From assembly GCA_028287465.1 (NCBI GenBank), contig JAQBPO010000056.1, forward strand, positions 1 to 53,237: 53,237 bases of DNA, read 5' to 3'. Shown piece after piece: positions 6,987 to 46,483 of the stretch. Each line of letters starts with the position of its first letter. Positions within the stretch are counted from its first letter, which is position 1. The stretch is from Fibrobacterota bacterium. Its GTDB lineage: Bacteria; Fibrobacterota; Fibrobacteria; UBA11236. The position numbers were made by a program, and so were the translations under genes. The notes below the pieces were generated by a model. That model was not told the DNA's origin. It made no database searches and saw only the letters and a program-made list of their open reading frames with translations.

Positions 6987-9077
6987 ATGAAGTTCTCTAA
7001 ATCGTGCCTGATGGCCGTTTCCGCCTTTTACGCCTTCGCCGGGACCGCCTGGAGCGCCCAGGTATGCAACCTGGTCCTGAACCGATGCCCCAGCGCCTTC
7101 CCCGGCACCATCACGGTTCCCGAAAACGTGATCTGGCTGGATCCGATCGTCCCCGTCTGCTCCGATACGGTTCAGGTGGTTACGGGCAATACCTCTCCCC
7201 CGCCCTCCATCGTTTTCATCATCGACAATTCCGGCAGCATGAGCTCCGGGAACGACGGCGACGCGGTGAATAACGGCTGGAACGATCCCACCGAAGCCCG
7301 CTTCCGCGTGGTCAAGACCTTGCTTGATACCATCTACAAGGCATCCCCGAAAGCCGAGGTGGGCATGGTCATCTTCACCCGCCGCCTTTCCTTCGATCAT
7401 CGCGACAATCCCTTCTTCAAGCCCGCCTTCCCGGCCGATACCTCCCAGCATGATTCCTTCGTCCCCCTGACCCCGCTCGACAAGCCTTTCGGCGGCGGAG
7501 TCCTGGGCATCGATACCTTGAAGGCCTTGTTGACCTATTCCGGGCACGGAAACCTGAAATACGCCACCGCCCAGGCGAACTCCCGCCCGAGCAGCAACGG
7601 TCTCGATCCGAAAAACGTCCGCGATGGAACGGACATCACCTTGGGGTTCGACGGCGCCAAGGAGGCCATGAAGGATTCCAAGGCCGCCAAGGGAGATCAG
7701 TATTTCATCTTCCTTTCGGACGGCGAACCCAGCGGCGTGGACACTCCCCGGAACTCCGTCATGTACGATTTCGAGAAAGGCGTCGGCGCGGCCACGACCT
7801 TCACCGTCTTCTTCAAGGCCAATACCAGCGATCCCACCCCGCCCGACCGGATCAAGAACATGACCGAGGCCATAAAGACCAACGGGTATTCCACCAGCAA
7901 TCCCAAGAGCGCCGCCTTCGCCATCAGCCTCCCGGGCAGCCAATTGCTCGCCTTGCTGCAGAGCAACGTGCTCAATCCCATCTTCGCCAATACCAACGCC
8001 AAGCCGGCCAGCGCCGTCCTGGACGTGGGCGGGACCAAATACAACAGCACTTCCGTGGACGCCAAGGTCTTCACCTTCCCCAAGCGCGTTCCCCTGAGCC
8101 CCGCCCAGACCGCGGTGAACCTCACCTACACCTTCCAGTATACGGACTCGGGGCAGATCAAGACTTCGACCCGGAACTATACCCTGAACCTGAACCGGAC
8201 CGGAAGCGCCCCCCTGGCCGACGGCCTATCCACATCCTGCCAGGAGCAGGGCAACATCACCCTGTTCAACAAGGGCAATCCCATCACCGTCGTCACCGCC
8301 GATCACAACGATTTGGACGTGCACCTGACCCTCGGCTCCGGGGAGGTCTGCAACGGATGCAAGGTCGAGGTGAAGCCCAACAAGAGCGCGGACAAGGAGA
8401 CCGTTGCCTTGACGCCCGCGTCGGGATTCCAGACGGGCAACTTCGGCCGCGAAACCAGCAATACCGTGGCGGTGGGCGACGGCAAGCTGCAGCACCTGCC
8501 CACGGACAGCATCATCGTCATCTACGTGAATCCGGACAACAGCCTGGACGTCATCCGCAAGGCCTTCCCCTATTCGGACGTATCCACCGTGCTGGTGGTG
8601 CTGCGGCATAACACCTTCTCCCAGGGCGGGGATCTGGTGCCGCCCAAACCCGGAGAGCATTTCGTGCTGGTCACCCCGGGCTCCATCAGCCCTACGCCCG
8701 AGGACAAAGCCAAGAACTGGATCATCCTCCCCAACCTGGCCACGGAAAAGGATTCCGTCCGGTACGTGGGAGACGTCATCCAGGCCTCGCGCGCCTTCAA
8801 GGTGGAGATCGTCATCTTCACCAACCTGGGCCAGTTCGTGAACAAGATCGCCTTCACCGTGCCTCCGGCCGAGTTCTCCAAGCTGGCCAAATCCGCCAAG
8901 GGGAATACCCGCCAGCTCAAGGTGCTCTGGGACAATATGTCCGCGGACGGCACCAAGGCGGGAACCGGCGGCTACATCCTGAAGACCACGGTGACCCTGC
9001 TGAAGATCCCCGGCGTGGCCGAGGACGAAGCCGTTAGCACCGATTACCGCCGCGTAGGCGTGCTCCGCGGCCGGTAA
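6987..9077 (+). CDS. Secreted VWA-domain protein with shared C-terminal module (VWA1)
   Basis: A 696-residue exported protein with a signal peptide of about 25 residues ending near TAWSA, then a cysteine-bearing segment (VCNLVLNRCPSAF), then a von Willebrand A domain starting near residue 74. The MIDAS metal-site motif DNSGSM is intact, and FLSDGEPSG near 240 supplies further metal-site residues. The middle has immunoglobulin-like beta regions and a CNGCKVEV cysteine pair near 457. The C-terminus has IFTNLGQFV, GTGGYILKTTVT and the tail YRRVGVLRGR, shared with other proteins here. The start at 6987 follows a GGGGG stretch. It is closely paralogous to the next gene. The role is probably cell-surface adhesion or matrix assembly; this is inference. 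Confidence 0.85.
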   Translation: MKFSKSCLMAVSAFYAFAGTAWSAQVCNLVLNRCPSAFPGTITVPENVIWLDPIVPVCSDTVQVVTGNTSPPPSIVFIIDNSGSMSSGNDGDAVNNGWNDPTEARFRVVKTLLDTIYKASPKAEVGMVIFTRRLSFDHRDNPFFKPAFPADTSQHDSFVPLTPLDKPFGGGVLGIDTLKALLTYSGHGNLKYATAQANSRPSSNGLDPKNVRDGTDITLGFDGAKEAMKDSKAAKGDQYFIFLSDGEPSGVDTPRNSVMYDFEKGVGAATTFTVFFKANTSDPTPPDRIKNMTEAIKTNGYSTSNPKSAAFAISLPGSQLLALLQSNVLNPIFANTNAKPASAVLDVGGTKYNSTSVDAKVFTFPKRVPLSPAQTAVNLTYTFQYTDSGQIKTSTRNYTLNLNRTGSAPLADGLSTSCQEQGNITLFNKGNPITVVTADHNDLDVHLTLGSGEVCNGCKVEVKPNKSADKETVALTPASGFQTGNFGRETSNTVAVGDGKLQHLPTDSIIVIYVNPDNSLDVIRKAFPYSDVSTVLVVLRHNTFSQGGDLVPPKPGEHFVLVTPGSISPTPEDKAKNWIILPNLATEKDSVRYVGDVIQASRAFKVEIVIFTNLGQFVNKIAFTVPPAEFSKLAKSAKGNTRQLKVLWDNMSADGTKAGTGGYILKTTVTLLKIPGVAEDEAVSTDYRRVGVLRGR

Positions 9078-9165
9078 TCCCCTCCTATTTCCGGTTCCGC
9101 TTACTCCGCCTACCGAGTAGTGGGACCGTGTAACCGGAGCCCTGCCGGTAATCAAACGGGTAAAC

Positions 9166-9200
9166 AGGGAACCGGGTTTCGGGCCCATCCCCTTTTTTTT
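9166..9200 (+). terminator. Possible terminator after first VWA gene
   Basis: Two short stacked GGG/CCC stems (from about 9166) are followed by eight T residues at 9193-9200. The stem is imperfect, so this is only a candidate. Confidence 0.3.
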
Positions 9201-9201
9201 G

Positions 9202-9243
9202 GGAATATGGGGCTTACCCCCGGTTCCTGAGCGCCCATATTCC
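9202..9243. promoter_or_regulatory. 10-bp inverted repeat upstream of second VWA gene
   Basis: GGAATATGGG (9202-9211) and CCCATATTCC (9234-9243) are exact inverted repeats with a 22-nt centre. They lie 65 to 106 nt before the second VWA start and could be an operator or an mRNA hairpin. Confidence 0.35.
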
Positions 9244-9272
9244 AAATTCCCCTGCGATTTTGCCCGCCTCCC

Positions 9273-9281: not shown

Positions 9282-9307
9282 AAAACGTTGCGTGAGGGGA
9301 AGTTAAA

Positions 9308-11371
9308 GTGATACGACGCAGGTGGATATTCGCCGCCGTCGTGGGCGTCTCGATCGGCTTCGGCAAGGCTGGTCGCGTCTGCGACCTGGCTTTCTCGGAT
9401 TGCCCGGGCAGGTTCTCGTCGGGCACCGTGAAGGTCCCGAACGAGATGATCTGGCTGGACTCGAAAATCCCGTTCTGCAATGAATTCGTCCAGATCACCA
9501 ACGGCAACGTAAAGCCGCCCTCCGTCATCTTCATCATCGACAATTCCGGCAGCATGGACGAGAACGACCCCCTGGTCGCGCGCTTCGACGTGGTGGCGAC
9601 CCTGCTGGACAATATCTACACCTTCGCGCCTTCGGCCGAGGTGGGCCTGGTGGTCTTCACCCGCCGCCTCTCCTTCGATCATCGCGAGAATCCCTTCTTC
9701 AAGACCGCCTTCCCCGCGGACACGGCCCAGCACGATTCCTTCGTGCCCTTGACCGCGCTCAACAAGATCTTCGCGGACGGACGGACCGGGCTGGATACCC
9801 TGAAGGCGATGCTCAAGCACGACGACAAAGGCAATCTCACCTACGTCACCAAGCTTCCCGCGTCGCGGAACAATTCCGGCATGGGCCGTTCCAATACCCG
9901 CGACGGTACGGACATCTCCCTGGGTTTCATGGCCGGCAAGGTGGCCATGAAGGACTCCAAGTCCGATAAGGCGAACCAGTACTTCGTCTTCCTGTCGGAC
10001 GGCACCCCTTCCACCCCGGACAACGGCCGCGAGGGCATGATCAACGAATTCATCGCCGGCACCGGCGTCCCCACCACCTTCACCGTCTTCTTCGACACCC
10101 AGAACAACACGCCCGTCGCGCCCAGCACCATCGTGGAGATGACGGGAAAGATCAAGCTCAACGGCTATTCGCTCAGCAATGCGAAGAGCGCCTTCTGGGC
10201 CATCGACATGCCCGGCAGCCAATTGCAGAACCTCCTGCAGACCCAGGTGATCGGGAACGTCCTCTCCGTGCCGGCCAAACCCAAGGCCGCCAGCCTGGCC
10301 ATGGGGGATACCACCTTCCGCACCGTCGGGCTCGACGCCAAGAATTACCTCTTCCCGCGCCACGTGGCCCTCCAGGAGGACACCACCCGGCTGCAGCTCG
10401 ATTACACCTACTCCTATATCGACACCACCGGCGGCCTCCAGGTGCCGAAGGAAAAGATCGTCCCTTACGCCCTGACCATCGTGCGATCCCCGAACGCGCC
10501 CCTTCCGGTCGGCATGGCGCAATCCTGCAAGGAGCAGGCGGACATCTCCCTGTTCCATGACGGGCAACCCATCACCCGGGTCACGGCGGACGATGGGGTT
10601 CTTGAAGCGCGCCTCACCATGCCGGACGGCTCCCTCTGCCAGGGCTGCAAGATGCAAGTGCTGCCGTCCTCGTCCAAAAGCAAGGACCATGAGGACCTGA
10701 TGGTCGCTCCGGCGGGCGGGTACCTGACCGGCACCTTCCAGCGTGAAATCAGCGCCTCTCCCACCTTGGGCGACGGCCGGCTGCAGCATCTGCCCCTGGA
10801 CAGCATCGTGGTGCTTTTCGTGAGCCCGGAGAATGCCCTGGACCGGGTGCGGAAGGCCTTCCCCTATACGGACATGGCCACGGTCCTCAATCTCGGACGC
10901 CAGAACGACCTGGCGAAGTCGCGCTATATCCCGACTTCGCCCTTCGAGCCGCAATGGATTCTGGAAGGCGCGCCGACCCTTCAGGCCACCGCCTTCTCGG
11001 CCACCGATGTCTGGCGCGTACTTCAGGCCCCCCTGGCGCCCCAGGATTCGGAACGCTTCATCGGCGTCACGGTGGAAGCCTCCCGGGCCTTCATGGTGGA
11101 CATCCACGTATTCACCAACCTGGGCCAGTTCGTGAACAAGCTCACCTTCGTGATCAACCAGGACGAGTTCCAGAAGCTGGCGAAGGGGGTCAAGGGCAAT
11201 ACCCGCGTGCTCAAGATCCTTTGGGACAGCCGGTCCCGGGCGGGTTCCCTGGTTGGCACGGGCGCCTACGTCATGAAGACAACGGTGACCTTGATAAAGA
11301 TTCCCGGCATCGCCGAAGACAACGCCATCCGCACGGATTACCGGCGCGTCGGCGTTCTGCGCAGACTCTAG
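9308..11371 (+). CDS. Secreted VWA-domain protein with shared C-terminal module (VWA2)
   Basis: A 687-residue exported paralogue of the preceding gene. It starts with GTG at 9308, seven bases after GAGGGGAAG. A signal peptide (MIRRRWIFAAVVGVSIGFG) is followed by a cysteine pair (VCDLAFSDCPGRF) and a VWA domain beginning near residue 73 with the MIDAS motif DNSGSM and, near 228, FLSDGTPS. Long blocks match VWA1, for example RRLSFDHR and AQHDSFVPLT. A CQGCKMQV segment sits near residue 440. The C-terminal module reads VFTNLGQFVNKL, GTGAYVMKTTVT and finally YRRVGVLRRL. It ends 21 bp from the convergent permease gene. Tandem duplication explains the pair; function is inferred as surface adhesion or assembly. 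Confidence 0.85.
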   Translation: MIRRRWIFAAVVGVSIGFGKAGRVCDLAFSDCPGRFSSGTVKVPNEMIWLDSKIPFCNEFVQITNGNVKPPSVIFIIDNSGSMDENDPLVARFDVVATLLDNIYTFAPSAEVGLVVFTRRLSFDHRENPFFKTAFPADTAQHDSFVPLTALNKIFADGRTGLDTLKAMLKHDDKGNLTYVTKLPASRNNSGMGRSNTRDGTDISLGFMAGKVAMKDSKSDKANQYFVFLSDGTPSTPDNGREGMINEFIAGTGVPTTFTVFFDTQNNTPVAPSTIVEMTGKIKLNGYSLSNAKSAFWAIDMPGSQLQNLLQTQVIGNVLSVPAKPKAASLAMGDTTFRTVGLDAKNYLFPRHVALQEDTTRLQLDYTYSYIDTTGGLQVPKEKIVPYALTIVRSPNAPLPVGMAQSCKEQADISLFHDGQPITRVTADDGVLEARLTMPDGSLCQGCKMQVLPSSSKSKDHEDLMVAPAGGYLTGTFQREISASPTLGDGRLQHLPLDSIVVLFVSPENALDRVRKAFPYTDMATVLNLGRQNDLAKSRYIPTSPFEPQWILEGAPTLQATAFSATDVWRVLQAPLAPQDSERFIGVTVEASRAFMVDIHVFTNLGQFVNKLTFVINQDEFQKLAKGVKGNTRVLKILWDSRSRAGSLVGTGAYVMKTTVTLIKIPGIAEDNAIRTDYRRVGVLRRL

Positions 11372-17863: not shown

Positions 17864-19183
17864 TCAGGCCCCGGTGGCCGGGGCGAAGGCGTACCGCCGG
17901 ACCTTGGCGGGCGCCGAACCGATCTTCACGCTCAGGAAATAGATGCCGGCCTTCAGCTTGGAACGGTCGAATTCGTAGGTGACCCTGCCGAAGCCGCGCT
18001 TCACGTCCACGATGCGGCCGGAGACGTCCGTGACCTTGGCCTCGTACTTCTTGTCGAAGAGGGAGGTGAAGGCCGGCTTGTCCGGATCGAACAGCGCGGT
18101 GGTGCTTTGGTAGGTCTGGCCCGTCAACTGGTCCTTGGTGTCGACGATGGGCAGGCCGTTGCAAACCGTGCCGGCGCAGACTTCCGTCTTGTACCCGGCC
18201 AGGTAGAACAGGGTCTGGGCCACGTAACGATCGTAATCGCCGGTCCCGCCGTCGAAGGTGGTGCCGGGCAGGGTCAGTTCGTCGTCTTCATGGCCGGCGG
18301 GGACATAGGAGACCTTGCCCTGACCGACCTGCAGCAGGAAGGTGTAGAGGTTCCCGCCCGCGTAACGGTATTGGGCCGGAAGGGCGTCCCCGAGGTTGCG
18401 CGGGTCGTACTTCAGGAGGGGCGTCACCAGGGACTTGTATTTCACGTCCGTGGTCAGGTTGCGTCCGAACTGGTACCACTCGTTCTTCATTTGCCGGGTC
18501 TTCACGTTCGTCGCGAGCTTTTCGGTCCCGACCGCATCCACGCCGTCGGGGACCGTGGCCAGGGTGGTGCCGGTTTCCAGGACCCCTTGCAGGACGATGT
18601 GCTTGGACAAGGCGACATCCTTATAGACCGGACCGGGGGTCCGCGTCAGATGGCCATGGTAACCCACCGGATGCAATTCATCGGTGTAGAACTTCCACTC
18701 GCCGCCGCCGTCGCCGCTGCCGTGGAAGCCGAGGACGCCCCGCCCTTCGGTCTTGACCGCGGTTTCGAAGGCGGCCGCCTCCTGGGGATTCTTGGTCTGC
18801 AATTGCGGGAAGTAGCTGATGTTGTTGGTCACGATGACTTCGCCGGAAAGCAGATCCGCCAAGGTGAATTGGACGATTTCCCCGATGGCGGCGCCGTCGT
18901 TGGAGCTGGCGAACTTCTTCACGATGAAGGCATCCTTGCCGCCCGTTCCGTAGTTCTTGGCGATGCGGCCCAGGGAGGCGTCGATCACCTGCTTGCCCGG
19001 GAGATGGCCGTTCCCGAAGGTGAAGTTCAGCTCCACGACCTGGGTCAGCTTGGAGGTGTACTTGACCGCGTTCCCGTTGACCATCCTGACATGGGCGCGC
19101 GCCGCCGGCATGGTGGCGGTCTGGGCGAATACGTTCGCGATGAGCAGGGCGCAAGGCGCCCAGATTGGCATTCTCAGATTCAT
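17864..19183 (-). CDS. Secreted ThuA-like protein with sorting-type C-terminus
   Basis: A 439-residue exported protein. A signal peptide (MNLRMPIWAPCALLIANVFA) leads a ThuA-like domain, a glutamine-amidotransferase-like fold linked to sugar metabolism, with GRGVLGFHGSGDGGGEWKFY near residue 145 and SYVPAGHEDDE near 295. The last 55 residues (VTDVSGRIVDV, then LKAGIYFLSVKIG) match the type A sorting domain of type IX secretion cargo. A CAGTVCNG pair is near residue 336. The start at 19183 has AAGGAGG just upstream. It lies 100 bp downstream of the barrel pair, with its own operator-like palindrome at 19267-19285. The second ThuA protein at 30-31 kb suggests a shared glycan role. Confidence 0.75.
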   Translation of the reverse strand: MNLRMPIWAPCALLIANVFAQTATMPAARAHVRMVNGNAVKYTSKLTQVVELNFTFGNGHLPGKQVIDASLGRIAKNYGTGGKDAFIVKKFASSNDGAAIGEIVQFTLADLLSGEVIVTNNISYFPQLQTKNPQEAAAFETAVKTEGRGVLGFHGSGDGGGEWKFYTDELHPVGYHGHLTRTPGPVYKDVALSKHIVLQGVLETGTTLATVPDGVDAVGTEKLATNVKTRQMKNEWYQFGRNLTTDVKYKSLVTPLLKYDPRNLGDALPAQYRYAGGNLYTFLLQVGQGKVSYVPAGHEDDELTLPGTTFDGGTGDYDRYVAQTLFYLAGYKTEVCAGTVCNGLPIVDTKDQLTGQTYQSTTALFDPDKPAFTSLFDKKYEAKVTDVSGRIVDVKRGFGRVTYEFDRSKLKAGIYFLSVKIGSAPAKVRRYAFAPATGA

Positions 19184-19266
19184 ACACCCTCCTTGGGAAT
19201 CAGGCTCCGCGCCTGATGGAATGATAGCGGCGGAAGCCGGGGCCCGCATGGGGCCGGGGGAAATAG

Positions 19267-29920: not shown

Positions 29921-29949
29921 GTGATACTCTCCGCTCCTTCGGTTACCGC

Positions 29950-34921: not shown

Positions 34922-37900
34922 TTATCGCCTGCGGAGGATGCCCCAGACCTGGTCGAGGCTGCCGCTTTCCACCACCTTGCCAGCCACTTTCACCTGGTAG
35001 CGCAGGCGCGCCACATAAGCACCGGTCGCTACCTTGGCGCCGTCCTTGGCTGTGTAGTTCCACCCCACGAACACGTACCCCCGGTTGGCCAGGCAGTCGC
35101 CCTTGAAAAGCGCGTCCGTGCATGGGATGGTCCTCTTGTCCGCCGCTACCGGCGCCCCGAAATTCGTGAAGTAGGAGGCTTGGTACTCGAGCGCCACCTG
35201 GGAAGGTTCCACGTCGGAGAAATCGTCCTTCACCGCATAACCGCCCAGATCGGTCTTGATCAGATGGCCCATCCGGCCGGTGCGCTCCACCACCTCGCCC
35301 ACCACGGAATTGGCCGGTTCGAGGGACGGGACCACCACGGTGGCCCGCAACAGATCCTGCCCCGGCGCGATTTCCCGATAGGTCACGGTCTGGATCTCGG
35401 AACGCTTGCCGCCCGTGATCACCCTGAAGCGCGAGGCCGGTCCCGAGCCGTTGCCGGACTCGTCCGCGATTCGGCCCGTGCCGTCGGGAATGCCCACGAG
35501 GTTCCCCGCTCGCGGTGCGTTCGCGGAAGCCGTCGCGAAGACGAGGGAAACCTCCATCCCGTCATCCTTCCAGATTACGGCGGCCGGATCGACCTGTTCC
35601 GCGGCCCCGTCCTTCATGCGCTTGTAGTCGAACAGGCCGATCGGGGCGACCGTGATGCGGCCCGCATCGATGGGTTCGCTGAAGCGGATGCGCAGGGTAT
35701 CCTGGGCCTGGCCCAGGATCATTTCCGCGGATTGGATGATGGGACCGATGCGATCCGCCAGGGGGACGGTCTGGGTGGAATCCCGGCCGCGGGCGGGATA
35801 GGTGGAGGCGAATACGCCTTGTCCCTTGGTCAGGACCTCGGCCGAGAAGCGGCCCTTATACGTCAGGTTCTTCCCGTCCACGAGCTTGGCCGGCTCCGCG
35901 CCCGTCAAGGGCACCGCAGTCTCGGCGGCGGAGGCCGGCCAGCGATAGGCGATCTTCTTCGGGACCCCGATAGAGATGTCCCTATCGTATTCCACCGCGA
36001 TGCGGTCGCCGATGCCGTCCCCGTCGTCGTCATAGATGCCCGCGGATACGGCCTTGGGCAGATCCAGGGGCGGCATCCGGAAGGTGAGGCTCATCTTCTT
36101 GGCGGATCCGTTGATCTCCAGGATATAGGTCTTGTCCACGGGATCGGTCGAATCCGCGGTGGCGTACAGCACGGCCAGGCCGGTCGCTTCCGTGGATAGG
36201 ACCGCGCCGCTCAGGATGGGTACGGTTTTGGCCGCGTCCGCGTAGACCTTGAGACCGGGCGGGATGGTCAGGCTGTAGGTTTCGGCCTTGGCCACCATGG
36301 CTCCCGCTTCCCGGTTGGCCGCATTGAGGGTGACCAGGGATCCGACCAGGGTGTCCCGCGTATAGGAAGGCTCGAATTCGACGCGGTTCCTGGGCGCCAC
36401 GAAGGTCAGGGAGACGGGTTTGGCGGAGAGGGGGATGGACAGGATATAGGTCTGATCGGCCGTAGCGGATGCGGTACCCGTAACCCACAGGGTATCATAG
36501 CCGTCCGTGCCGGTGGATAGGGCGGTGCCCGGAACGACCTTGACGGTCTTGGCCTTGTCGGCATAGGCTTCCAGGCCTGCCGGGATGGCGGGGGTATAGG
36601 AGGCGATGGCGGCCACCAACACGCCCTTCTCCCGGTTGGCCGCCACCACCGGCACCAAGGTGCCGAGCGGTACGGAGACGGCATAGGGGGCCTCGAACTC
36701 GACCAGGTTTCGCGTCGGCACCTGGAAGGGGATTTCCACGCGCACCTTCTCATTGGCCGGTTCGAAAATGACGATGCGGTAAGGACCGGGGGCCAGGCCC
36801 GTGATCTTGGCCGTATCCACGGTGACGTCCGGGGTGGCGATGGCGATGCCGGTATGGAAGGTGCCGTCCTTCAGCGTCTCCACGAGCTTGCCCGCCGCGT
36901 CCAGCAATTGGTAGGTCAGGTTGGCCGGATCCACCACCTTGGTGGCGGTGTCCAGGGACGAGCAGGAACCCTTGCCGCCTTCGCGCTTGCGGATCTTGAA
37001 GCGCACCAGGCCGGTCGCGCCCGGGATTTCCTCCTTGAACAGGGAGCGCTGCTGGCGGAAGAATATCGAGGTCTTGACGCGCAGGGAGGATCCGCAAGGC
37101 TGCCGGTCGCAGTAGAAGAAGTCCCACTTGTACTCCTTGCCCGGCGTGAGGCTCAGCTTGTCCAGCTCGATGGAATCGGACTTGGGGGTATGCACTCCTC
37201 CCAGGTCCACCACCAGCTTGTCGTCGATGAAGACCCAGACATCGTCGTCCCCGCGGAAGGCGAAGCGCTGGCCCTTCTGGTAGATGAAGGTGGCGTGCGA
37301 CTCCATGCAGAAATTCCCGTTGCGCAAAGGCCCATTGGTGACCCATGAGGTGGAATCCGGCGGGGGTTTCACGTAACAGGAGGCCATGGTCTCGGCGAAG
37401 CGGTTGGCCGTGCCTTCCACGGGGAAGAAGCTGTGGTCGACGGGGCTGTCGCGGTAGCTGTCGTATTCCCAGAGGCCGTCGCTGCTCTTGCTCATGGGGA
37501 TGTCCACGCAGCTCTCGTAGGCGCGCAGCTTGGGGTTGGCGTTGACCGTATCGGTCTGCCACCAGGAATCGAAGGTGTCGAAGGTGACGGGCGGTTTGGT
37601 CGCGGTGGTGCTGCGCAAGGGCTTGCGGCCCGCGCCGATGACGGGTTGGACCATCCCCTTGAGCAGGAAGTCCCCGGTGAGGCCCGCGAACTCGAAATCG
37701 GGGTGATCCTTGCTGAAGTCCCGCACGGTGGCGGCCATCATGTACTGGCATTCGCCGTCCAGGTTGGGCCATGCCGCGGTCCAGGCATTGGACTCGGTGT
37801 TGAGCCACAGGTTCGCGCCCTTGGCCGCGAATTCCGCCGCGAGATCGAAATCGCCCGCGCCCCCGAAACCGCCCGTTCCGTAGGTATCCGCATCGTTGAC

Positions 37901-38491
37901 TTCGGCGAAGTGGATCCTGGTCATGGCCGGATCGAGGATCAGGGAGGTGAACCAGCCGCAGCGTCCCGGCGTGGTGGTCATGCCCCGGGTCTTGGCCCCG
38001 GAAACGATCTTGGGCGCGGTGGTGGGCCAAGGATTGAGGATGTTGACGGTCTTGGGCTCCTCGAACATCACGATGGGGGGCGCCGTGATCGGGCCGGACG
38101 GATCGACCACGATCCACATTTCCTTGTTGCCCAGGAAATCCGATACCTTGAACCGGCCTTCATCCGAGGCGTTCAGCCCATTCTTCCCGAATTTCCATTT
38201 ATAATGCTCCCCGTCCGGGGCCGTGCCGTTGCTGGTGAAAAAGAAATCCTGGGTATACAGGCCTATCCCGCTCAGGGTGAGCGAGTAGTTGTATTTGGAA
38301 TCCTTTTTGAAAGCGATATCACCGTTCTGGAAATAGAAGGTGTTGAAGTTGTCCGATTCCACGTAAAGGTGGATGGTCTTCCCGTTCAGGCTGTCCGTGG
38401 GAGGTTGGGAGAACGCCGGCGAAGCGCCGAATGCCAGGACCAGGAAAAGGCAGGCGGAATAAGCGAAGCAGGACGGATTGATTCTACGCAT
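34922..38491 (-). CDS. Fibro-slime domain protein 1, with tandem Ig-like repeats
   Basis: A 1189-residue secreted protein with a signal peptide (ACLFLVLAFGASPAFS). The fibro-slime (TIGR02148, PA14-like) domain spans about residues 330-490 and shows FCMESHATFIYQKGQRFAFR, GDDDVWVFIDDKLVVDLGGV and KYKWDFFYCDRQ-like cysteine pairing. Two tandem repeats of about 105 residues follow (starting NLVEFEAPY near 592 and NRVEFEPSY near 700), each with the pattern ANREKG/ANREAG and AYADKAKTV/VYADAAKTV. A calcium-type segment YDDDGDGIGDRI is near 820. The C-terminus has FTNFGAPV, KVATGAYVARLRY-like strand and VWGILRRR. It is paralogous to the next gene. Role: cell-surface adhesion to fibre, inferred from the family. 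Confidence 0.9.
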   Translation of the reverse strand: MRRINPSCFAYSACLFLVLAFGASPAFSQPPTDSLNGKTIHLYVESDNFNTFYFQNGDIAFKKDSKYNYSLTLSGIGLYTQDFFFTSNGTAPDGEHYKWKFGKNGLNASDEGRFKVSDFLGNKEMWIVVDPSGPITAPPIVMFEEPKTVNILNPWPTTAPKIVSGAKTRGMTTTPGRCGWFTSLILDPAMTRIHFAEVNDADTYGTGGFGGAGDFDLAAEFAAKGANLWLNTESNAWTAAWPNLDGECQYMMAATVRDFSKDHPDFEFAGLTGDFLLKGMVQPVIGAGRKPLRSTTATKPPVTFDTFDSWWQTDTVNANPKLRAYESCVDIPMSKSSDGLWEYDSYRDSPVDHSFFPVEGTANRFAETMASCYVKPPPDSTSWVTNGPLRNGNFCMESHATFIYQKGQRFAFRGDDDVWVFIDDKLVVDLGGVHTPKSDSIELDKLSLTPGKEYKWDFFYCDRQPCGSSLRVKTSIFFRQQRSLFKEEIPGATGLVRFKIRKREGGKGSCSSLDTATKVVDPANLTYQLLDAAGKLVETLKDGTFHTGIAIATPDVTVDTAKITGLAPGPYRIVIFEPANEKVRVEIPFQVPTRNLVEFEAPYAVSVPLGTLVPVVAANREKGVLVAAIASYTPAIPAGLEAYADKAKTVKVVPGTALSTGTDGYDTLWVTGTASATADQTYILSIPLSAKPVSLTFVAPRNRVEFEPSYTRDTLVGSLVTLNAANREAGAMVAKAETYSLTIPPGLKVYADAAKTVPILSGAVLSTEATGLAVLYATADSTDPVDKTYILEINGSAKKMSLTFRMPPLDLPKAVSAGIYDDDGDGIGDRIAVEYDRDISIGVPKKIAYRWPASAAETAVPLTGAEPAKLVDGKNLTYKGRFSAEVLTKGQGVFASTYPARGRDSTQTVPLADRIGPIIQSAEMILGQAQDTLRIRFSEPIDAGRITVAPIGLFDYKRMKDGAAEQVDPAAVIWKDDGMEVSLVFATASANAPRAGNLVGIPDGTGRIADESGNGSGPASRFRVITGGKRSEIQTVTYREIAPGQDLLRATVVVPSLEPANSVVGEVVERTGRMGHLIKTDLGGYAVKDDFSDVEPSQVALEYQASYFTNFGAPVAADKRTIPCTDALFKGDCLANRGYVFVGWNYTAKDGAKVATGAYVARLRYQVKVAGKVVESGSLDQVWGILRRR

Positions 38492-38620: not shown

Positions 38621-38683
38621 CTAAGGCAACCGGGCCGAACCCTAAGGGGATCGGGCCGGATGCTAAGGCATCCGGAGCACGCC
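38621..38683. repeat. 21-bp tandem repeats spanning the fibro-slime 2 stop codon
   Basis: CTAAGG recurs at 38621, 38642 and 38663, a strict 21-bp period; pairs of units share about 15 of 21 bases. On the minus strand the gene-proximal unit encodes GVLRMP and stop; the next two read HPARSP-stop and GSARLP-stop in the same frame. The second and third units also form an 8-bp perfect hairpin (CCGGATGC at 38656 with GCATCCGG at 38668). Confidence 0.5.
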
Positions 38684-41536
38684 CCAGGTCTGATCCAGGC
38701 TTCCCGAGGCCGCGGTCTTGCCCGCCACCTTGATGCTGTAGCGCATGCGGGCCACGTAGGCGCCCGTGGCCACCTTCTGCTTGCCGTCCGAAGTCTGGTT
38801 CCAGCCGACGAACAGGTAACCGCGCGCGCCGCGGCAATCCCCGTTGAAGATCCGATCCTGGCAGGAAATGGTCCGCTTGGATGAGGCCACCGGAACCGCA
38901 TGGTTGGTGAAGTAGTATACCTGGTACTCCAGGGACACCTGGGACGGATCCACCTTGCGGAAACCGTCCCCCTGGGCATAGTCCCCCAGGTCCGCCTTGA
39001 TGAGATGGCCCATCAGGCCCAGGTCGGAGGCAATCGTCGTGACGCTCTTGTCGAAGGCCTGGAGGCTGACCTGGATGGTCGGAGCGTCCGGGCCCTGGCG
39101 GGAGGCATCCACTTCCGCGAAGGTGATGGTCTGGATATCCGTGCGCTTGACCCCGGTGATCAGGCGGAACCGGGAGTTGGGCCCCGCTCCGTTGCCGCCC
39201 GCATCGGCGATGCGCCCGGTACCGTCCATGATACGCACCAGATTGCCGGAGCGGGGGGCCGCGTTCGAAGGGAAGGCAAGGGAGGCCAGCGTTCCCTCCG
39301 CGTTCCAGACCAGGGCCGTGGGCGCCAGGACCACGTCGGGTCCCGCCTCCGAAAGGCGGTAGCGGAACAGTTCCACCGACGGCGCGATCACCTTGGCTAC
39401 GTCGACCGGCTCGCTGAAGCGAAGGCGCAAAGTATCCACGCCGATCCCCAGGATCATTTCTGCCGTCAGCAGGACGGGCGCGATCCTGTCCTGGATGGGG
39501 ATGTTCTGCACCGAATCCCCGCCCCGGCCCGCATAGGTCGAAGCGAACAGGCCCGTCCCATCCGTGAGTACGGCCGAGGTCAAGGCCTTGCCTTTCAAGG
39601 AGAGGGTCTTGCCGCCTTGCAGGGCCGCGGCCAAATCCGCGCCGGACACGGCCACCGGGGCCGAAGCGGCCGGCCAGCGATAGGCCGCCATCTTGGGTAG
39701 GGGGGCGGAAATGTCGCGATCATAGACGGCATCGATGCGGTCGGCGATCCCGTCCGCGTCCTCATCGTAAGCAGCGGCGGAAACCGCGAGCGGCAGGTCC
39801 AGGGGAGGCAGGTCCGGCGTCTTGCCCGAAATGGTGAACGAAACCTCGTCCTGGATGGAGGAATTGGCGGGTTCGTAGAAGAGGATGCGGTAGTCGCCGG
39901 CCGGCAGCCCCGTGATCTTGGCGGTGTCCACGGTGATGCGCGGGGTCTCGATGAGGATGCCACCCAGGCTCGCGCCCTCCGGCAGATCACGCACCTTGGT
40001 TCCCGCCGCGGTGAACAACCCGTAGGCCAGGGCGGCCGGATCGGTCTCCTTCACGGAGTCCACGGCGCTGCCGCAGGCGCCGGTCCCGCCCACGCGCTTG
40101 ATGACGCGGTAACGCATGCCTCCCTCCGCCAGGGATTCCCCGACATGGTCGAGGCCGCGCTGCTGCTTGAAGTAGATGGTGGTCTTGATACGCATGGAGG
40201 ACGAGCATTCCTTGCGTTCGCAGAAGAAGAAGTCCCAGTTGTATTGCTTGCCCTCGACCAGGCCCCGGGAGGCGAGATCCACCGAGCCGGAGGTGGCCTG
40301 GTGCACGCCGCCCAGATCCAGGGCCAATTGCCCGTCGATGTACACCCAGACGTCGTCGTCCCCGCGGAACTCGAAGATCTGGCCTTTCCTGTAGACGAAG
40401 GAGGCGTGCGACTCCATGCAGAACCCGAAGTTGTGGAAGTCCTTGGAGCTGACGTATTTCTCCGTGTTCGGGTTCTTATAGCAGGTATTGTTGGTGTTCA
40501 CGTCCAGGCGGTTGGCCTTGTCGATGGGGAAATACCCATGGGCGGGGGTGCGGAAGGAATCGAATTCCCACAGGCCGTCGTCGCTCTTGCCCATCTCCAG
40601 ATCCACGCAGGTCTCGTACCCTTTGAGCGGGGCGGCCCGGGTGCTGTCCGAGTTGAACCAGGTCCCGAAGTTGGGCGGGGCGGCGCTCGCGGGCAGGGGC
40701 TTGCGGCCGGGGCCCAGGACCGGCTGCACCATTCCCTTTACGACCCCGTCCCCGGTGGGACCGTAATCGGGATGGGACTTGGACATGTCGTGCACCAAGG
40801 TGGCCATCAGGTAGGAGCAATTGCCTTCCTTGCCGGGAAACTTCCCGGTTACCGTCCCCGCGTCCGGCAGGTACAGCTCCGGCCCCTTGGCCGTGAAATC
40901 GGCGGTGAGATCGAAATCCGCGGCATCCCCGAATCCGCCCTTTCCCCAGGTCTCGCCGTCCGCGATATTGCTGAAGTGCGCCTTGACCGGCCCGGAAACC
41001 AGGATCCACTCCGTATACCAGCCGCAATGGGTCCGGTCCGAAAGCATCCCCATCTTGGTCCCGTTGAGGACGATCTGCGGTCCGCTGAGCGGCCAGGGAT
41101 TGAAAACGTGCACCAGGCGCGGGGGCGCGGTCAGGATGACGGGCGGCCCTTTCAGATCCCCATGGGGATCCAGCAGGATCCACACCTCGTCCACTCCAGC
41201 CGGGAAGATGTCGGGGCGGAACTCCGTGGCGCTGCCGGGACCGATGCGGCCGAACTGCTGCTGGAAATCCGCGGTGCGGAAATGGAAGTCGTTCATGAAC
41301 GGGGTGAGGGCCGTTCCCAGGGAGGAGAAATCGAAGCGGAGCCAATTCCCGGAGTCCACGGTTACGGGATAATCCGTGCCCGTAATGTTGATGACGGGGA
41401 TGACCCCATCGAACGGATTGTAAACGTGAACGACCTTGCCGGTAAGGCCGCTGGGGCCTGGCTGGGAATAGGCGGAAAACGCGGAAATCAGGCTGAAAAC
41501 GACAAAAATGGCGATGCGATTTGTGAGTTTGGTCAT
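38663..41536 (-). CDS. Fibro-slime domain protein 2
   Basis: A 957-residue secreted protein. A signal peptide (IAIFVVFSLISAFSAYS) follows the preferred start at 41536; an upstream ATG at 41560 is possible but has no ribosome site. The fibro-slime domain lies near residues 310-465 with FCMESHASFVYRKGQIFEFR, GDDDVWVYIDGQLALDLGGV and YNWDFFFCERKECSSSM. A calcium-type segment YDEDADGIADRI is near 590. It lacks the two tandem Ig-like repeats of its paralogue, which explains much of the length difference. The C-terminus has YFTNHAVPV, KVATGAYVARMRY and TWGVLRMP. A CATATTC element lies about 30 nt upstream. Surface adhesion or fibre attachment is the likely role. Confidence 0.9.
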   Translation of the reverse strand: MTKLTNRIAIFVVFSLISAFSAYSQPGPSGLTGKVVHVYNPFDGVIPVINITGTDYPVTVDSGNWLRFDFSSLGTALTPFMNDFHFRTADFQQQFGRIGPGSATEFRPDIFPAGVDEVWILLDPHGDLKGPPVILTAPPRLVHVFNPWPLSGPQIVLNGTKMGMLSDRTHCGWYTEWILVSGPVKAHFSNIADGETWGKGGFGDAADFDLTADFTAKGPELYLPDAGTVTGKFPGKEGNCSYLMATLVHDMSKSHPDYGPTGDGVVKGMVQPVLGPGRKPLPASAAPPNFGTWFNSDSTRAAPLKGYETCVDLEMGKSDDGLWEFDSFRTPAHGYFPIDKANRLDVNTNNTCYKNPNTEKYVSSKDFHNFGFCMESHASFVYRKGQIFEFRGDDDVWVYIDGQLALDLGGVHQATSGSVDLASRGLVEGKQYNWDFFFCERKECSSSMRIKTTIYFKQQRGLDHVGESLAEGGMRYRVIKRVGGTGACGSAVDSVKETDPAALAYGLFTAAGTKVRDLPEGASLGGILIETPRITVDTAKITGLPAGDYRILFYEPANSSIQDEVSFTISGKTPDLPPLDLPLAVSAAAYDEDADGIADRIDAVYDRDISAPLPKMAAYRWPAASAPVAVSGADLAAALQGGKTLSLKGKALTSAVLTDGTGLFASTYAGRGGDSVQNIPIQDRIAPVLLTAEMILGIGVDTLRLRFSEPVDVAKVIAPSVELFRYRLSEAGPDVVLAPTALVWNAEGTLASLAFPSNAAPRSGNLVRIMDGTGRIADAGGNGAGPNSRFRLITGVKRTDIQTITFAEVDASRQGPDAPTIQVSLQAFDKSVTTIASDLGLMGHLIKADLGDYAQGDGFRKVDPSQVSLEYQVYYFTNHAVPVASSKRTISCQDRIFNGDCRGARGYLFVGWNQTSDGKQKVATGAYVARMRYSIKVAGKTAASGSLDQTWGVLRMP

Positions 41537-41644: not shown

Positions 41645-44035
41645 TCAGAAAATGCTCATCTGCCGCGAATCCTGGGTCACCGTCAGGAAATCCGTCCCGT
41701 AGAACCGCAACACCATATCCGCGATCGGCGCCAGCTGCTTCTCGGCATAATGCCGGTAATCCGGCTTCGCTCCCGACAGCTTCTGCACCGGCTCCGGCCC
41801 CTCGGTCGTCATCAGGTAGCGGATGACGCGGCTGTCGCGCCGGTCCATCATGAGCGCGGCGCGCACATGGGGCGGGGGGTTGCCGGTATACTCTTCAGGG
41901 TCCTTGCTAAGGCCCTTGCTGTAGACCAGCCTGTCGTCGAGCTCTCCCGCGGCCAGCCTCCGGTTCCAGTCGCGGACCAGGGCTTCCAGCGGCCCCCTCT
42001 CCTCCACGTTGTCCTGCTTGAAGACCAGGGCCAGGATCTCGCCCTGGAAATCCTTGGCCAGGCGCGTCCAATCGCTGCGCGCCGATTCCAGGCCGGTGAA
42101 GTGGAGCGATCCCGAGGCCAACAGCCCGGCATAACGCTTCTTGGATCCGCGGTCCTCCTTGCGCAGGCCGGGCATGAAGAAGCGCAGGAAGATCTTCTCG
42201 AACTGGATGGTCAGGCGGCTCGCCACGGAGAAACGCTCCCGGAGCAGGGTCTCCATATGCACGTTGAGGTCCGCGGCAAGACCGGCTCCGATCGCCTTGA
42301 GGGACTCCAGGCCGTCCGCCCGGGGCGCATGCACGAACAGGCTGTCCGTGTCACCGTAGATCACCCGGTACCCCTGCTCCTCAAGGAAGCGTTTCGATTC
42401 CAGCAGGATCCATTGGCCCGTGCGGGTGATGGTACCCGCCAGATCCGGATGGAAGAAGCGGCATCCGGGATTGCCCAACACCCCGTAAAAGGAGTTCATG
42501 ATGATCTTGACCGCCTGGGAGAGGGACTTGTCGCCGATCACCTTGGCGCTTTCGCGAACGTCCATCAGGGTCTCGACGATACCGGGAAGGATGGCGAGCT
42601 CGCGGGCGAAGGCCGGTCCCGCCGGCCCCTTCACCCAGGTGACATCGGGGTTACCTTCGGCCAAGCCGTACTGCCCCGCGGCCGCCGCGAGGGGATCCAC
42701 CATGAAGGTGCGGATGATGCTCGGGTACAGGCTCTTGAAATCGAGCACCAATACGTTGCGATGGATGCCGGGCGTCCCTTCCAGGACCAGGCCCCCCGGA
42801 ACGCCTTCGTCCGCGGGCGCGCGGTTGCCCGTATCCGCCACGTAACCGGCGCGGTGCAGGAGGGGAAGATAGAGGAAGTCGAGGGCGGCCACGCTGCCTC
42901 CCATGCGATCGAGGGCCAGGCCGGTCAACTGGGTCTTGCGCACCGCCAATTGGGACAAGGACAGCTTGGCGAAAATCTCCTTCACGAGCACGGAATCCAC
43001 CAGGTTGTAGCGGGCCAGCCCGGCCTTGTCTTCCCGGAATTGGCGCTCGATCTCGGCCATCTTCTCGACGCCTTCGAGTTCGATGAGCTTCTTCTTTCCC
43101 AGCACTTCGCCCGCCACCGTGGCCAGGGAATACCCTTCCACCGCCACGAAGGCCGCCTTAAGCATGTTGATGCCGTCGAGCACGGCCCGTCCCGGGATGC
43201 GCGCCAGCCAGTTGGAACCGAAGCGGCCATAGGCGTTCCCGCCCTCCGGCTCGATCAGATCCGCCGGGCCGTCGATTCCCAGGTCCAGCCTCAGGCCGGC
43301 GGCCTCGCACCGGCCCGCCAGGTATCGCAGATCGAAATTGATGACATTCCACCCGATCAAGGCGTCCGGATCCGCTTCGCGCACGGCCCGGAAGAAAGCG
43401 GTCAGGAGACTGCGCTCGTCGGGATATGCCTCATATCCGTCATGGATGGATCCCGGGGGAAAGGAAGGATCGATCATGAAGACGCGGGAAACCGGCGGGG
43501 CCCCACCGCCCGGATCCGCGGGGTCGCCGTACAGGGATATCGAGAACAACCCGCCCCGGGGCGTGCATTCCACGTCCAGGGAAAGCAGGCGCAGGGACGG
43601 GGTGAAGGCCGAAGGCTCGACCCGGCCGTCCCGGAAATCCACCAGGCCGTCCTTCTCGGAGGCGGGAGGATCGAGAAAGCGGATGCCGCCTTTCACCTTG
43701 CGTTCCATCAGGTGGCGGGCCGGAGCGGAAACGTCCGATTCATAGGTGCGGATGCCCAGACCCTCGGCCTGCCGGCGCGCCCGGGCCAGGTCCAGGGAGG
43801 ATTGGAAATAGAGGGCGTCCACGGGAAGGCCGCGCAGGGTCTTCAACTCCAGGGGACGTCGCTGGGTGCATCCCGTCAGATCCGGCGCCTCGCGTTCCAC
43901 GAAAAAGCATAGGCGAGGCCGGGTCACGGACCAGCGGAACCGCCGTCCGTCGGTCAACCTTCCCTGGAAGACCAGTTGCGTGGCATCCCGGCCGAGATCG
44001 CGGATGGAACTGGAGAGGATGAAACCTTCCGACAT
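41645..44035 (-). CDS. polB: Family B DNA polymerase (DNA polymerase II-like)
   Basis: A 796-residue polymerase. The exonuclease motifs are present: RLLSLDVEC near residue 150, NVINFDLRYL near 235 and YNLVDSVLV near 338. The polymerase motifs are intact: DFKSLYPSII near 430, KIIMNSFYGVLG near 515, YGDTDSLFV near 558 and KKRYAGL near 640. The end QMSIF fits a Q-x-x-I/L-F sliding-clamp binding motif, as in E. coli Pol II. The start at 44035 follows AAGGA; an upstream ATG in the same frame has none. It likely acts in repair or translesion synthesis. It is divergent from the candidate small RNA and the third VWA gene. Confidence 0.93.
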   Translation of the reverse strand: MSEGFILSSSIRDLGRDATQLVFQGRLTDGRRFRWSVTRPRLCFFVEREAPDLTGCTQRRPLELKTLRGLPVDALYFQSSLDLARARRQAEGLGIRTYESDVSAPARHLMERKVKGGIRFLDPPASEKDGLVDFRDGRVEPSAFTPSLRLLSLDVECTPRGGLFSISLYGDPADPGGGAPPVSRVFMIDPSFPPGSIHDGYEAYPDERSLLTAFFRAVREADPDALIGWNVINFDLRYLAGRCEAAGLRLDLGIDGPADLIEPEGGNAYGRFGSNWLARIPGRAVLDGINMLKAAFVAVEGYSLATVAGEVLGKKKLIELEGVEKMAEIERQFREDKAGLARYNLVDSVLVKEIFAKLSLSQLAVRKTQLTGLALDRMGGSVAALDFLYLPLLHRAGYVADTGNRAPADEGVPGGLVLEGTPGIHRNVLVLDFKSLYPSIIRTFMVDPLAAAAGQYGLAEGNPDVTWVKGPAGPAFARELAILPGIVETLMDVRESAKVIGDKSLSQAVKIIMNSFYGVLGNPGCRFFHPDLAGTITRTGQWILLESKRFLEEQGYRVIYGDTDSLFVHAPRADGLESLKAIGAGLAADLNVHMETLLRERFSVASRLTIQFEKIFLRFFMPGLRKEDRGSKKRYAGLLASGSLHFTGLESARSDWTRLAKDFQGEILALVFKQDNVEERGPLEALVRDWNRRLAAGELDDRLVYSKGLSKDPEEYTGNPPPHVRAALMMDRRDSRVIRYLMTTEGPEPVQKLSGAKPDYRHYAEKQLAPIADMVLRFYGTDFLTVTQDSRQMSIF

Positions 44036-44116
44036 GGATCGATCCTTAGGACGAATTGGGATTTGAGGGGCCGTGGGGAAAGCATCGTTCTTTGGGATGC
44101 ACCCCATCTAAAAGGG

Positions 44117-44151: not shown

Positions 44152-44205
44152 GCAAGTCCGACGCGTATGTCCGTCGGACAACGGGAACTTTGGTCCCGTT
44201 TTTTT
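44152..44205 (+). ncRNA. Candidate small RNA of about 55 nt
   Basis: The predicted transcript starts about 7 nt after the TAAAAT box. It holds an 8-bp perfect hairpin (GTCCGACG at 44156-44163 with CGTCGGAC at 44172-44179, 8-nt loop), immediately followed by a Rho-independent terminator. No gene on the same strand lies upstream for over 15 kb, so the terminator is not explained by a known gene. The 330-bp gap 44036-44365 otherwise holds only promoter sequence for the VWA gene. Confidence 0.45.
44180..44205 (+). terminator. Rho-independent terminator without upstream gene
   Basis: AACGGGA pairs with TCCCGTT (7 bp, 7-nt loop) and the stem runs into seven T residues (44199-44205). Confidence 0.7.
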
Positions 44206-44302
44206 ACTGTTCGCTGGGAAAAAACGGCGATTTCGCGGGTTGATGACCAGGAGTTTGGGACGGCCTAAAAGTACTTTTGTCTATCGTAAAAACACTGCCG
44301 GG

Positions 44303-44311
44303 AGTATATTC
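44303..44311 (+). promoter_or_regulatory. TATATTC element upstream of third VWA gene
   Basis: AGTATATTC lies 55 nt before the start codon, matching the elements before the first two VWA genes. Candidate -10 box. Confidence 0.4.
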
Positions 44312-44365
44312 GGTTTCGGAGCCGAAGGATCGCAATCCTGCCACCGGCAAAAAGGAAAAACCAAT

Positions 44366-46483
44366 ATGTCTTCTCTCGCTTCGAACCGGTTTTTCGGCGC
44401 CCGGACGACGGCCTTCGGGACTTCGCTCCTTGTCCTTTCCTTGACCGCCCATTCCGCGTTCGCGGCCAAGGCCGCCAAGCGATGCGATTGGCACGGTCCC
44501 CTCTCCGGCGGGGAAAAGCAATACGCGAAGTGCGTGGATTTCGCGGCCTTGAACGGCAAGACCATGGACCTGCCCAAGAACGTCACCCGCATCGCCGCGG
44601 ACGGGCTTTCCTTTTGCGTGCCTCCCACCCCCACCACCGGCGCGGGCGATGCCGATATCGTCTTCATCTACGACAATAGCGGCAGCATGACCGCGGACGC
44701 GGCCTATGGCGATCCGGCCACCGGGGATACCTCCTTCTACTACCTGCAATACGGCAATGGCGCCCCGGACGCCTGCTCCCAGAATCCCAAGGGCGCCGAC
44801 CTCAACTACTACACCCGGGAAGGCACCACCCGGTCCGTTCTCCTGCTCACCGCCAACGCCAATTGCAACCGGCAGATCGCGGGAGATCCGTACAATGCGC
44901 GCGGCGCCGTGATCAAGGTGGGAATCGACTTCCTGGCCAAGAACTCCCCCACCTCCACAGCCGGAACCATATCCTTCACGGACCAGCTCAAATACCAACA
45001 GCAGAACCTGCCGGTGAACAATGCCGGCAACGTGAATACCATCAAGAACAGCATCCAGTTGGACACCAGCGGAAGCACCCATTACGGCCCGCCCCTGGAG
45101 CTCGCGAACCAATGGCTCAATAATCCCGCCATCATCAAGACCAAGAAGCAGGCCATCATCTTCATCTCCGACGGCGCTCCCCAGGACAATTACGCCGCGA
45201 TCCTGAACGCGGGCCTTCCCCCCGTCTACAGCATCTACCTGTCCAAGTCCACCAGCCCGGACACGGCCAAGCTCAAGGAAATCTCCGACAAGACCGGCGG
45301 CACCTTCACCCGCGTGAATCCCAATGACCCCAAGGCCTTCGAAGCCGTGATGACGTCCATCATCACCACCATCACCCGGAACACCCTGCCCAAGGGCACC
45401 ACGGTCACCAACAAGTCCCTCTCGCCCCCGCAGGTCAGCAAGAGCACCACCGTGACCGGCAACCCGGACGGCAGCGTGGGCATGCAGCTCGACAGCATCA
45501 TCGCCCTCAAGGAAGGCCCCAACCAGATCGAAATCAACCTGGTCCGGGAAGACAACACCACCATCACCTATGCCTTCACCATGAACGTGGCAGGCTCCGA
45601 GATCTCGTCTTCCGCCGGGAACTACTCCTGCTGGGACATGCCCACCTTGGCCGCCATCGACAAGAAGACCGGCCTGGTCGCGGAAATCTACCGCCCGGAC
45701 AACAATACCTACCAGTTGAAGCTGACCCGCTCGCCTTCGGATTTGCGGGACGTGAACGTGGCAGGGGGTTCGGCCAACAACGACAAGGAAAACATCCCGC
45801 TGTCCAACCTGAACATGAATCTCGGCTTCCCCACCCAGACCGGCGACTTCACCTACAACCCGGCCAAGTCCAGCCCAACCTTGAACAACGGGGTCCTGGA
45901 AGTGGACAACCACGGGGATCTCACCTTCACCTGGTCCCATCCCCGGGATGCCCGCGAGACCGTGACCTATATCCTGCCCGGCCGCATCGTGCCCATCCTC
46001 AGCGGCGACCCGACCCTGAAAATCAGGGAGCCGTTCACCAAGGGCGTCACCTTCGACCCGCTTAAGATCACCAACCCCGTCCTGATCACGGACAGCAAGA
46101 ACAAGTGCATCGTCAATTGCACCGGTACGGAGGATTTCCATACCGGCGGCGGCGTTCCCACGTGGGATCTCACCATCAAATCGCCCATCCGTTATTCCAT
46201 CAAGATCTTCGACAACCTCGGCCAGTTCGTCAGCCTGTCGGACGGGCAGATGGACGCGGCGGCCTGGACGGCCATATCCAAAAGCGGGGATTCGGCCACC
46301 ATCCAGCTGAAGATCCTGCCCGTCTCCAGCGACGGCCAGCAGCTGGGAACCGGAGCCTACCTGATGATGGCCACCATCACCGCCCTCGGCGACGAGGTCA
46401 AGAAGGGTTCCAACGGGGAATCCATCATCGTCAGGAACGCGAAACGGGACTACCTGAGGCGCTTCGGTTACGTCCGCAACTGA
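44366..46483 (+). CDS. Secreted VWA-domain protein with shared C-terminal module (VWA3)
   Basis: A 705-residue exported protein with a signal peptide ending AHSAFAA near residue 34, a cysteine-bearing segment (KRCDWHGPLSGGEKQYAKC) and a VWA domain from about residue 96 with the intact MIDAS motif DNSGSM; IFISDGAPQDNY near 270 is the matching metal segment. It is only distantly related to the VWA pair at 7-11 kb and has a long insert after the MIDAS motif. Beta-rich regions follow, with CWDMPTLAAID near 425. The C-terminus has IKIFDNLGQFV, LGTGAYLMMATIT and YLRRFGYVRN, the shared module. The start at 44366 has AAGGA nine bases upstream. A clear terminator follows. Surface or adhesion role inferred. 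Confidence 0.85.
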   Translation: MSSLASNRFFGARTTAFGTSLLVLSLTAHSAFAAKAAKRCDWHGPLSGGEKQYAKCVDFAALNGKTMDLPKNVTRIAADGLSFCVPPTPTTGAGDADIVFIYDNSGSMTADAAYGDPATGDTSFYYLQYGNGAPDACSQNPKGADLNYYTREGTTRSVLLLTANANCNRQIAGDPYNARGAVIKVGIDFLAKNSPTSTAGTISFTDQLKYQQQNLPVNNAGNVNTIKNSIQLDTSGSTHYGPPLELANQWLNNPAIIKTKKQAIIFISDGAPQDNYAAILNAGLPPVYSIYLSKSTSPDTAKLKEISDKTGGTFTRVNPNDPKAFEAVMTSIITTITRNTLPKGTTVTNKSLSPPQVSKSTTVTGNPDGSVGMQLDSIIALKEGPNQIEINLVREDNTTITYAFTMNVAGSEISSSAGNYSCWDMPTLAAIDKKTGLVAEIYRPDNNTYQLKLTRSPSDLRDVNVAGGSANNDKENIPLSNLNMNLGFPTQTGDFTYNPAKSSPTLNNGVLEVDNHGDLTFTWSHPRDARETVTYILPGRIVPILSGDPTLKIREPFTKGVTFDPLKITNPVLITDSKNKCIVNCTGTEDFHTGGGVPTWDLTIKSPIRYSIKIFDNLGQFVSLSDGQMDAAAWTAISKSGDSATIQLKILPVSSDGQQLGTGAYLMMATITALGDEVKKGSNGESIIVRNAKRDYLRRFGYVRN

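Follow-up and report, generated by a model that had tools for sequence, protein, structure and literature searches.

A C-terminal module ending in G-x-x-R on fibro-slime and VWA proteins of Fibrobacterota: a candidate class of type IX secretion sorting domain

Introduction

Three classes of C-terminal signal for the type IX secretion system (T9SS), i.e. type A (PF18962), type B (PF13585) and type C (ChiA-like), have been described in Bacteroidota (PMC10202324). Here we consider a module that may represent a further class, found at the C termini of five proteins, three with VWA domains (V1, V2 and V3) and two of the fibro-slime type (F1 and F2), that are encoded in a 53,237-nucleotide stretch of DNA from a Fibrobacterota bacterium (assembly GCA_028287465.1, contig JAQBPO010000056.1, positions 1 to 53,237), which in its entirety is termed the window. 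The reading that we favor, with a probability of about 0.72, is that the shared C termini are one homologous, basic, Ig-like β-sandwich of ~110 residues acting as a Fibrobacterota-class T9SS sorting domain. The best reading of its class is that it lies outside types A and B, and that it is carried by fibro-slime adhesins.

The T9SS type A C-terminal domains (CTDs; PF18962/TIGR04183) resemble the module in being C-terminal Ig-like sandwiches behind signal-peptide passengers, with a glycine in the β3–β4 loop and a last strand near the terminus. The module differs in the longer hairpin before its last strand, and in that this strand ends in G-x-(hydrophobic)-R, whereas that of type A is centered on a lysine. 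Type B (PF13585/TIGR04131), the second Bacteroidota signal class, is probably uncleaved and occurs on adhesins such as SprB; by comparison, no linked shuttle gene was recognized beside the module cargo. The Ig-like domain of FlgD (PF13860) has the same strand order and the same W...G...G-x-Y core as the module, which, unlike FlgD, is non-flagellar, is always C-terminal on exported proteins and has an extra tail; a likely true FlgD, encoded elsewhere in the genome (contig C41), lacks the tail. The C-terminal domain of PorU (6za2, residues 1061-1158) is the best or tied-best structural neighbor of both module models that were made, but with only 14-18% identity, and PorU is part of the machinery, whereas the module proteins are cargo-like.

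Within the Fibrobacterota, a basic terminal domain (Fpm-1) of Fibrobacter succinogenes cellulases has been proposed as a T9SS signal, and the fibro-slime proteins of that species are listed without such a signal (PMC6851124). Fpm-1 is like the module in being a basic C-terminal domain from the same phylum with a proposed T9SS role; going by its description, it is unlike the module in being present on glycoside hydrolases and in that it is said to overlap TIGR04183 (PMC6851124). An earlier study of a termite Chitinivibrionia genome noted a flgD domain on a single fibro-slime protein (PMC4704652), which is possibly a glimpse of the module. In the open-access literature searched, no description of the module class was found. 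The surface delivery of Fibrobacter fibro-slime adhesins, which are linked to rumen cellulose binding, lacks an explanation, the published T9SS proposal covering cellulases and giving the adhesins no signal (PMC6851124). If the favored reading is correct, the T9SS cargo of the phylum would gain ~10 proteins per Fibrobacter genome and ~25 in genomes like the present one, all of which escape the family models used here, and T9SS signals outside Bacteroidota would possess a motif grammar of their own.

Results

When a profile of the five C termini was searched against the 5.8 Mb source genome, 24 proteins matched with E ≤4e-5, including 19 beyond the five (E 5e-19 to 4e-5), and the next match, at E 0.4, was separated from them by a clear gap; a second profile round added one fragment at a contig edge. 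The five window proteins belong to a family with about 25 members, and their likeness is not due to chance, since 19 further proteins match and all 24 share the tail. The module is the extreme C terminus in 24/24 members, and all have the tail [FVWILT]-G-x-[LVIMF]-R, 0-12 residues from the stop. No module departs from the Gly of G-x-Y or from the tail's Gly and Arg, and the Gly and Val of L-G-x-F-V are kept in 23 of the 24. The module genes are spread across 14 contigs and their passengers are unrelated, e.g. fibro-slime/PA14, VWA, GH9 cellulase and chitobiase-like repeats, together with several without a known domain; by a comparison of positions, nine of the 14 fibro-slime proteins of the genome have the module. 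Signal-peptide-like N termini, assigned by a simple hydrophobicity rule and reading by eye rather than by SignalP, are present in 23-24 of the 24 genome members and in 66 of 70 relatives, and in 100 members examined the module is never internal. Both results agree with a sequence-only reading of the window, made before this analysis, which looked to signal-peptide proteins and C-terminal positions for support.

That reading had reported five genes sharing a C-terminal module, all of which were found, with the ends that it described. V1 (6987..9077, plus strand) is a VWA protein with a Sec-type signal peptide; its module (8736..9074; IFTNLGQFV ... GTGGYI ... RRVGVLRGR) finishes in the tail VGVLRGR (9054..9074). 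Its tandem paralogue V2, also a VWA protein (9308..11371, plus strand), has its module at 11030..11368 and the tail VGVLRRL at 11348..11368. The third VWA protein, V3, lies at 44366..46483 on the plus strand (start approximate; likely the ATG at 44366, with the signal peptide MSSLASNRFFGARTTAFGTSLLVLSLTAHSAFA), with the module at 46127..46480 (IFDNLGQFV ... GTGAYL ... RRFGYVRN). F1, a fibro-slime (TIGR02148)/PA14 protein on the minus strand (34922..38491), has its module at 34925..35251, and its tail, WGILRRR (34925..34945), is the end of the last β-strand in the predicted structure; its tandem paralogue F2, a fibro-slime/PA14 protein on the same strand (38663..41536), has its module at 38666..38992 (YFTNHAVPV ... 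ATGAYV ... TWGVLRMP). Family searches with Pfam assign VWA to V1, V2 and V3, and PA14, with the TIGR02148 fibro-slime model, to F1 and F2. The motif strings given by the earlier reading hold broadly, but V1 has GTGGYI, not GTGAYV, and the FTNHAVPV of F2 lacks the glycine. The last 110 residues of all five can be aligned in one frame. Similarity is plain within the subgroups (V1/V2 52%, F1/F2 58%) and weak in pairwise comparisons of the VWA trio with the fibro-slime pair (BLASTP E 7e-5 to 0.09), for which the profile-profile comparison with hhalign is significant (P 1e-4).

The association of the tail with the domain was examined with a held-out control, in which the profile was cut before the tail and run on genomes outside its training set. 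Among the strong same-genus matches examined, 33/35 have the strict tail, one has FGYER, and in one it is disrupted. One module (L207, G156:C51:8962-9192) ends in RRRRNTAGWGS in place of the tail, as if the reading frame had shifted within the last strand. The strict tail is present in 0/32 of the other C-terminal FlgD/T9SS-like domains of the source genome, as found with PF18962 and PF13860; these ordinary CTDs finish in runs like KMILVK or TLIISR. One of them, the type A-like T9SS sorting domain (17915..18055, minus strand) of a ThuA protein (gene 17864-19249), lacks G-x-x-R, as the sequence-only reading had maintained in calling the tail different. The two controls therefore imply that tail and domain travel together, and that the class can be told apart from ordinary CTDs, the one on the ThuA protein among them. 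A second ThuA protein (29950-31038, minus strand) has a type A-like tail at its end (AGMYSVTLEAVGGSVSRRILIY), which the models used do not detect, and a BD-FAE/esterase protein (28412-30472, minus strand) has a CTD-like stretch, recognized by eye, that is located mid-protein and is not terminal (NVRVSVFTMAGGLVLQ ... APGSYLVRLQIGAERHTLTLPY).

The module and the ordinary CTDs of the genome are, to judge from profile-profile comparison, homologous (91.7%, P 8e-7; reversed control 0.1%); the aligned core is the same in both, with the hairpin before the tail being longer in the module. The tailed/untailed label switches only twice on the trees, and the tailed sequences as one clade are not rejected (p-AU 0.75). 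This clade is, however, seen in only 40% of bootstrap trees and is not proven, the tree having long branches and a few mis-cut rows (L019, L030, L152, L235).

Matches to the module are present in 166/168 Fibrobacterota genomes, strong in the class to which the window genome belongs and weak in other classes, and tail variants occur phylum-wide. The weak matches that were sampled frequently have the ending G-[VI]-x-[RK] (MLGVVRGK, ARIGVNR, TLGIVRK, GTIGITR), and order- and class-level relatives have the variants RQGIVR and G-x-x-[RK]. The core of the tail is G-x-x-R, with Arg or Lys in distant relatives. In G167, of the same phylum, the sampled matches are ordinary CTDs without the tail; G162, a small genome of the window's own family, has SprA and no module, three congeners having 3-4 matches each. 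In G029, a relative with a 2.5 Mb genome from another part of the phylum, there are 35 module-like matches, of which the three that were read end in ARIGVNR. A scan of 84,980 species for a peptide pattern gave 76 loci, all 76 of them in Fibrobacterota, C-terminal and tailed, though as occurrence outside the phylum was probed by this one narrow pattern, absence elsewhere is not established. The loci include one in Fibrobacter intestinalis ATCC 43854, the protein concerned being a fibro-slime protein.

SprA is encoded in the source genome and turned up in each of the 168 Fibrobacterota genomes searched, in 160 of them above the curated cut-off; the source genome also has PorV-family and PorU-like genes. 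Three PorU-like proteins (G000:C77:54012-60712, where two adjoin, and C15:73718-77113) each end in an ordinary CTD, and a PorV-family match (G000:C33:65181-67682) lies within an 886-residue open frame, the family model having only 326 positions. Work on the T9SS CTDs of Porphyromonas gingivalis has shown that the β3–β4 loop with its Gly (RgpB F695-DMNGRR-701) is needed for secretion, as is the C-terminal strand, for which extension is tolerated and replacement is not (PMC11285876). The F-[DT]-N-L-G-x-F-V stretch and the tail strand of the module correspond to these mutation-mapped secretion motifs. The tails of Fibrobacter members, which are extended by up to 27 residues, fit this tolerance, because the P. 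gingivalis strand can be extended (PMC11285876). Type A domains have, close to their end, a near-invariant Lys that contacts PorV (PMC10994853). In the module, the last strand has Gly in 24/24, Arg in 24/24 and no conserved Lys; it may be that the invariant terminal Arg plays a part like that of the type A Lys, at another place.

The F1 module is predicted to be an antiparallel Ig-like β-sandwich (predicted local distance difference test, pLDDT, 92.7; predicted template modeling score, pTM, 0.83), with the tail as its last strand; a V2 model (pLDDT 74.8) has similar strands. This refines the earlier reading, in that the tail belongs to the domain, as its last strand, and is no peptide of its own. 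The PorU C-terminal domain (6za2, residues 1061-1158) aligns with the F1 model at Z 7.3 (3.3 Å, 89 aligned residues) and with the V2 model at Z 7.2 (2.7 Å, 88 aligned); FlgD (3c12) gives Z 5.9 and 7.2 respectively, and the T9SS substrate NucA (8glk) Z 5.9 with the V2 model. Foldseek places FlgD and PorU among its first ranks (E about 0.004-0.01), with no match at E <0.001 for either model. The predicted fold is near to those of FlgD and the PorU C-terminal domain, as the comparison suggested earlier had anticipated. A search of Protein Data Bank chains with the module profile was uninformative (FlgD E 0.07; an unrelated brain tumor protein 0.02).

When the 24 bare modules were compared with family libraries, the models recurring in several members gave weak matches, i.e. 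FlgD_ig in 6/24 (best 6e-5; flagellar FlgD models also recur), the PorU C terminus in 7/24 (best 3.9e-5), and CHU_C type IX and Por_Secre_tail each in 3/24. By T9SS class, TIGR04183 (type A) matched 3/24 modules (best E 0.026), and PF13585/TIGR04131 (type B) likewise 3/24 (best E 0.003). None of the five window proteins reaches the curated type A cut-off (PF18962/TIGR04183), and none has a match to type B (PF13585/TIGR04131). For type C (ChiA type) nothing recognizable matched, no type C model being known by name in the libraries used. The FlgD N-terminal hook domain has no match in the window proteins, whose passengers are VWA or fibro-slime, and no phage families were found.

Discussion

The available evidence best supports the reading of the module as a T9SS signal because of the matching motifs and the presence of SprA, PorV-family and PorU-like genes. 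The proposal, made from the window alone, of a FlgD/type IX-like sorting domain of a distinct Fibrobacterota class emerges as the leading hypothesis, given the predicted fold, the exclusively C-terminal position on unrelated exported passengers, and a T9SS translocon that is present throughout the phylum. In the proposed route, a Sec signal peptide, of the type seen at the N termini of almost all members, would carry the protein to the periplasm, where the module would fold, so exposing the F-[DT]-N-L-G-x-F-V loop and the last strand ending in G-x-(hydrophobic)-R. We infer that SprA, acting with a shuttle barrel of the PorV family or one similar to it, then recognizes loop and strand in the translocon, because the functional motifs of T9SS CTDs match and SprA, PorV-family and PorU-like genes are present. 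Translocation would bring the passenger (a fibro-slime adhesin, VWA protein, GH9 cellulase or other) to the cell surface, with the module either removed by a PorU-type sortase or retained as an anchor; the kinship to the uncleaved PorU/PorZ domains slightly favors retention. The more specific proposal of a signal class particular to Fibrobacterota, which is defined by G-x-(hydrophobic)-R, uses a shuttle of its own, delivers fibro-slime and VWA proteins and remains attached to these as their anchor, is tentative, and we consider it to fall somewhat short of even odds.

Several points weigh against the favored reading. The export-directing function is assigned by homology, no model of a known T9SS signal family scores above its cut-off in the five window proteins, and comparison of the contig positions of PorV-family and cargo genes revealed no shuttle gene beside the latter. 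A few homologues are without the strict tail, and at the position of the type A Lys the module has no conserved equivalent, its invariant Arg being at Gly+3. Ig-like sandwiches are common, and Z scores of ~7 are not decisive, since GH2 and streptococcal protease domains score equally. Other Ig-like domains reach similar scores, which leaves the fold class secure but not the nearest neighbor.

It may instead be that the module is a divergent branch of the ordinary type A domains, using the same PorV shuttle and the same PorU processing, and differing only by drift in the last strand. The homology with the ordinary CTDs over the same aligned core, and the presence of PorV-family and PorU-like genes, are as this would predict. 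The tail is, however, a fixed feature of the module that 32/32 ordinary CTDs of the same genome lack, the trees show only two changes of its label, the preceding hairpin is longer, and no type A model exceeds its cut-off in the window proteins, so that we regard such an origin as unlikely, though it is the most serious of the competing explanations. Less probable is an anchoring or assembly role, with export signaled otherwise, in which a FlgD-like Ig domain links adhesins with one another or with a partner in the outer membrane. FlgD, which has the same fold, is an assembly cap, and in F. succinogenes fibro-slime proteins occur in envelope complexes (fibro-slime/TPR/OmpA; PMC6851124); such a role sits poorly with the strictly last position, with the unrelated passengers, one of them a GH9 enzyme, and with the fact that the two conserved stretches match T9SS secretion motifs already mapped (PMC11285876).

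That the module is a plain Ig-like end domain without a sorting role, in which the tail is kept only to close the sandwich, would account for the tail being a β-strand in the model, and for the generic nature of the Ig-like structural matches. Ordinary CTDs of the same fold nevertheless manage without G-x-x-R, and the module was never internal among the members examined, making this explanation improbable. A C-terminal signal of another kind is, despite the short conserved C-terminal motif, very improbable indeed. Three such kinds are rejected on anatomy: sortase-type signals, for want of a transmembrane segment with a basic cluster behind it; those of the exosortase/PEP-CTERM type; and the β-signal of the β-barrel assembly machinery, for which the terminal aromatic residue is lacking and the fold is an Ig sandwich and not a barrel.

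The fibro-slime-type modules (F1 and F2, in the A4 alignment) have two invariant Cys, C44 and C53 in F1 module numbering, which likely form a disulfide in an inserted loop. In another genome, G154 (L202, L208, L214, L220, L226, L273-L275, L278-L280), the tail is RQG[IV][IV]R, or GIAR in two cases, and all the members examined have a Cys 3-5 residues from the C terminus plus other conserved module Cys. Covalent anchoring via the terminal Cys is disfavored, a within-domain disulfide being likelier because that Cys comes with other conserved Cys. In L021, L201, L211 and L218, CC directly follows the tail (FGFVRTCCDTWNKRWYD and similar). In the window itself, a family B DNA polymerase is encoded at 41645-44107 on the minus strand, between the fibro-slime pair and V3.

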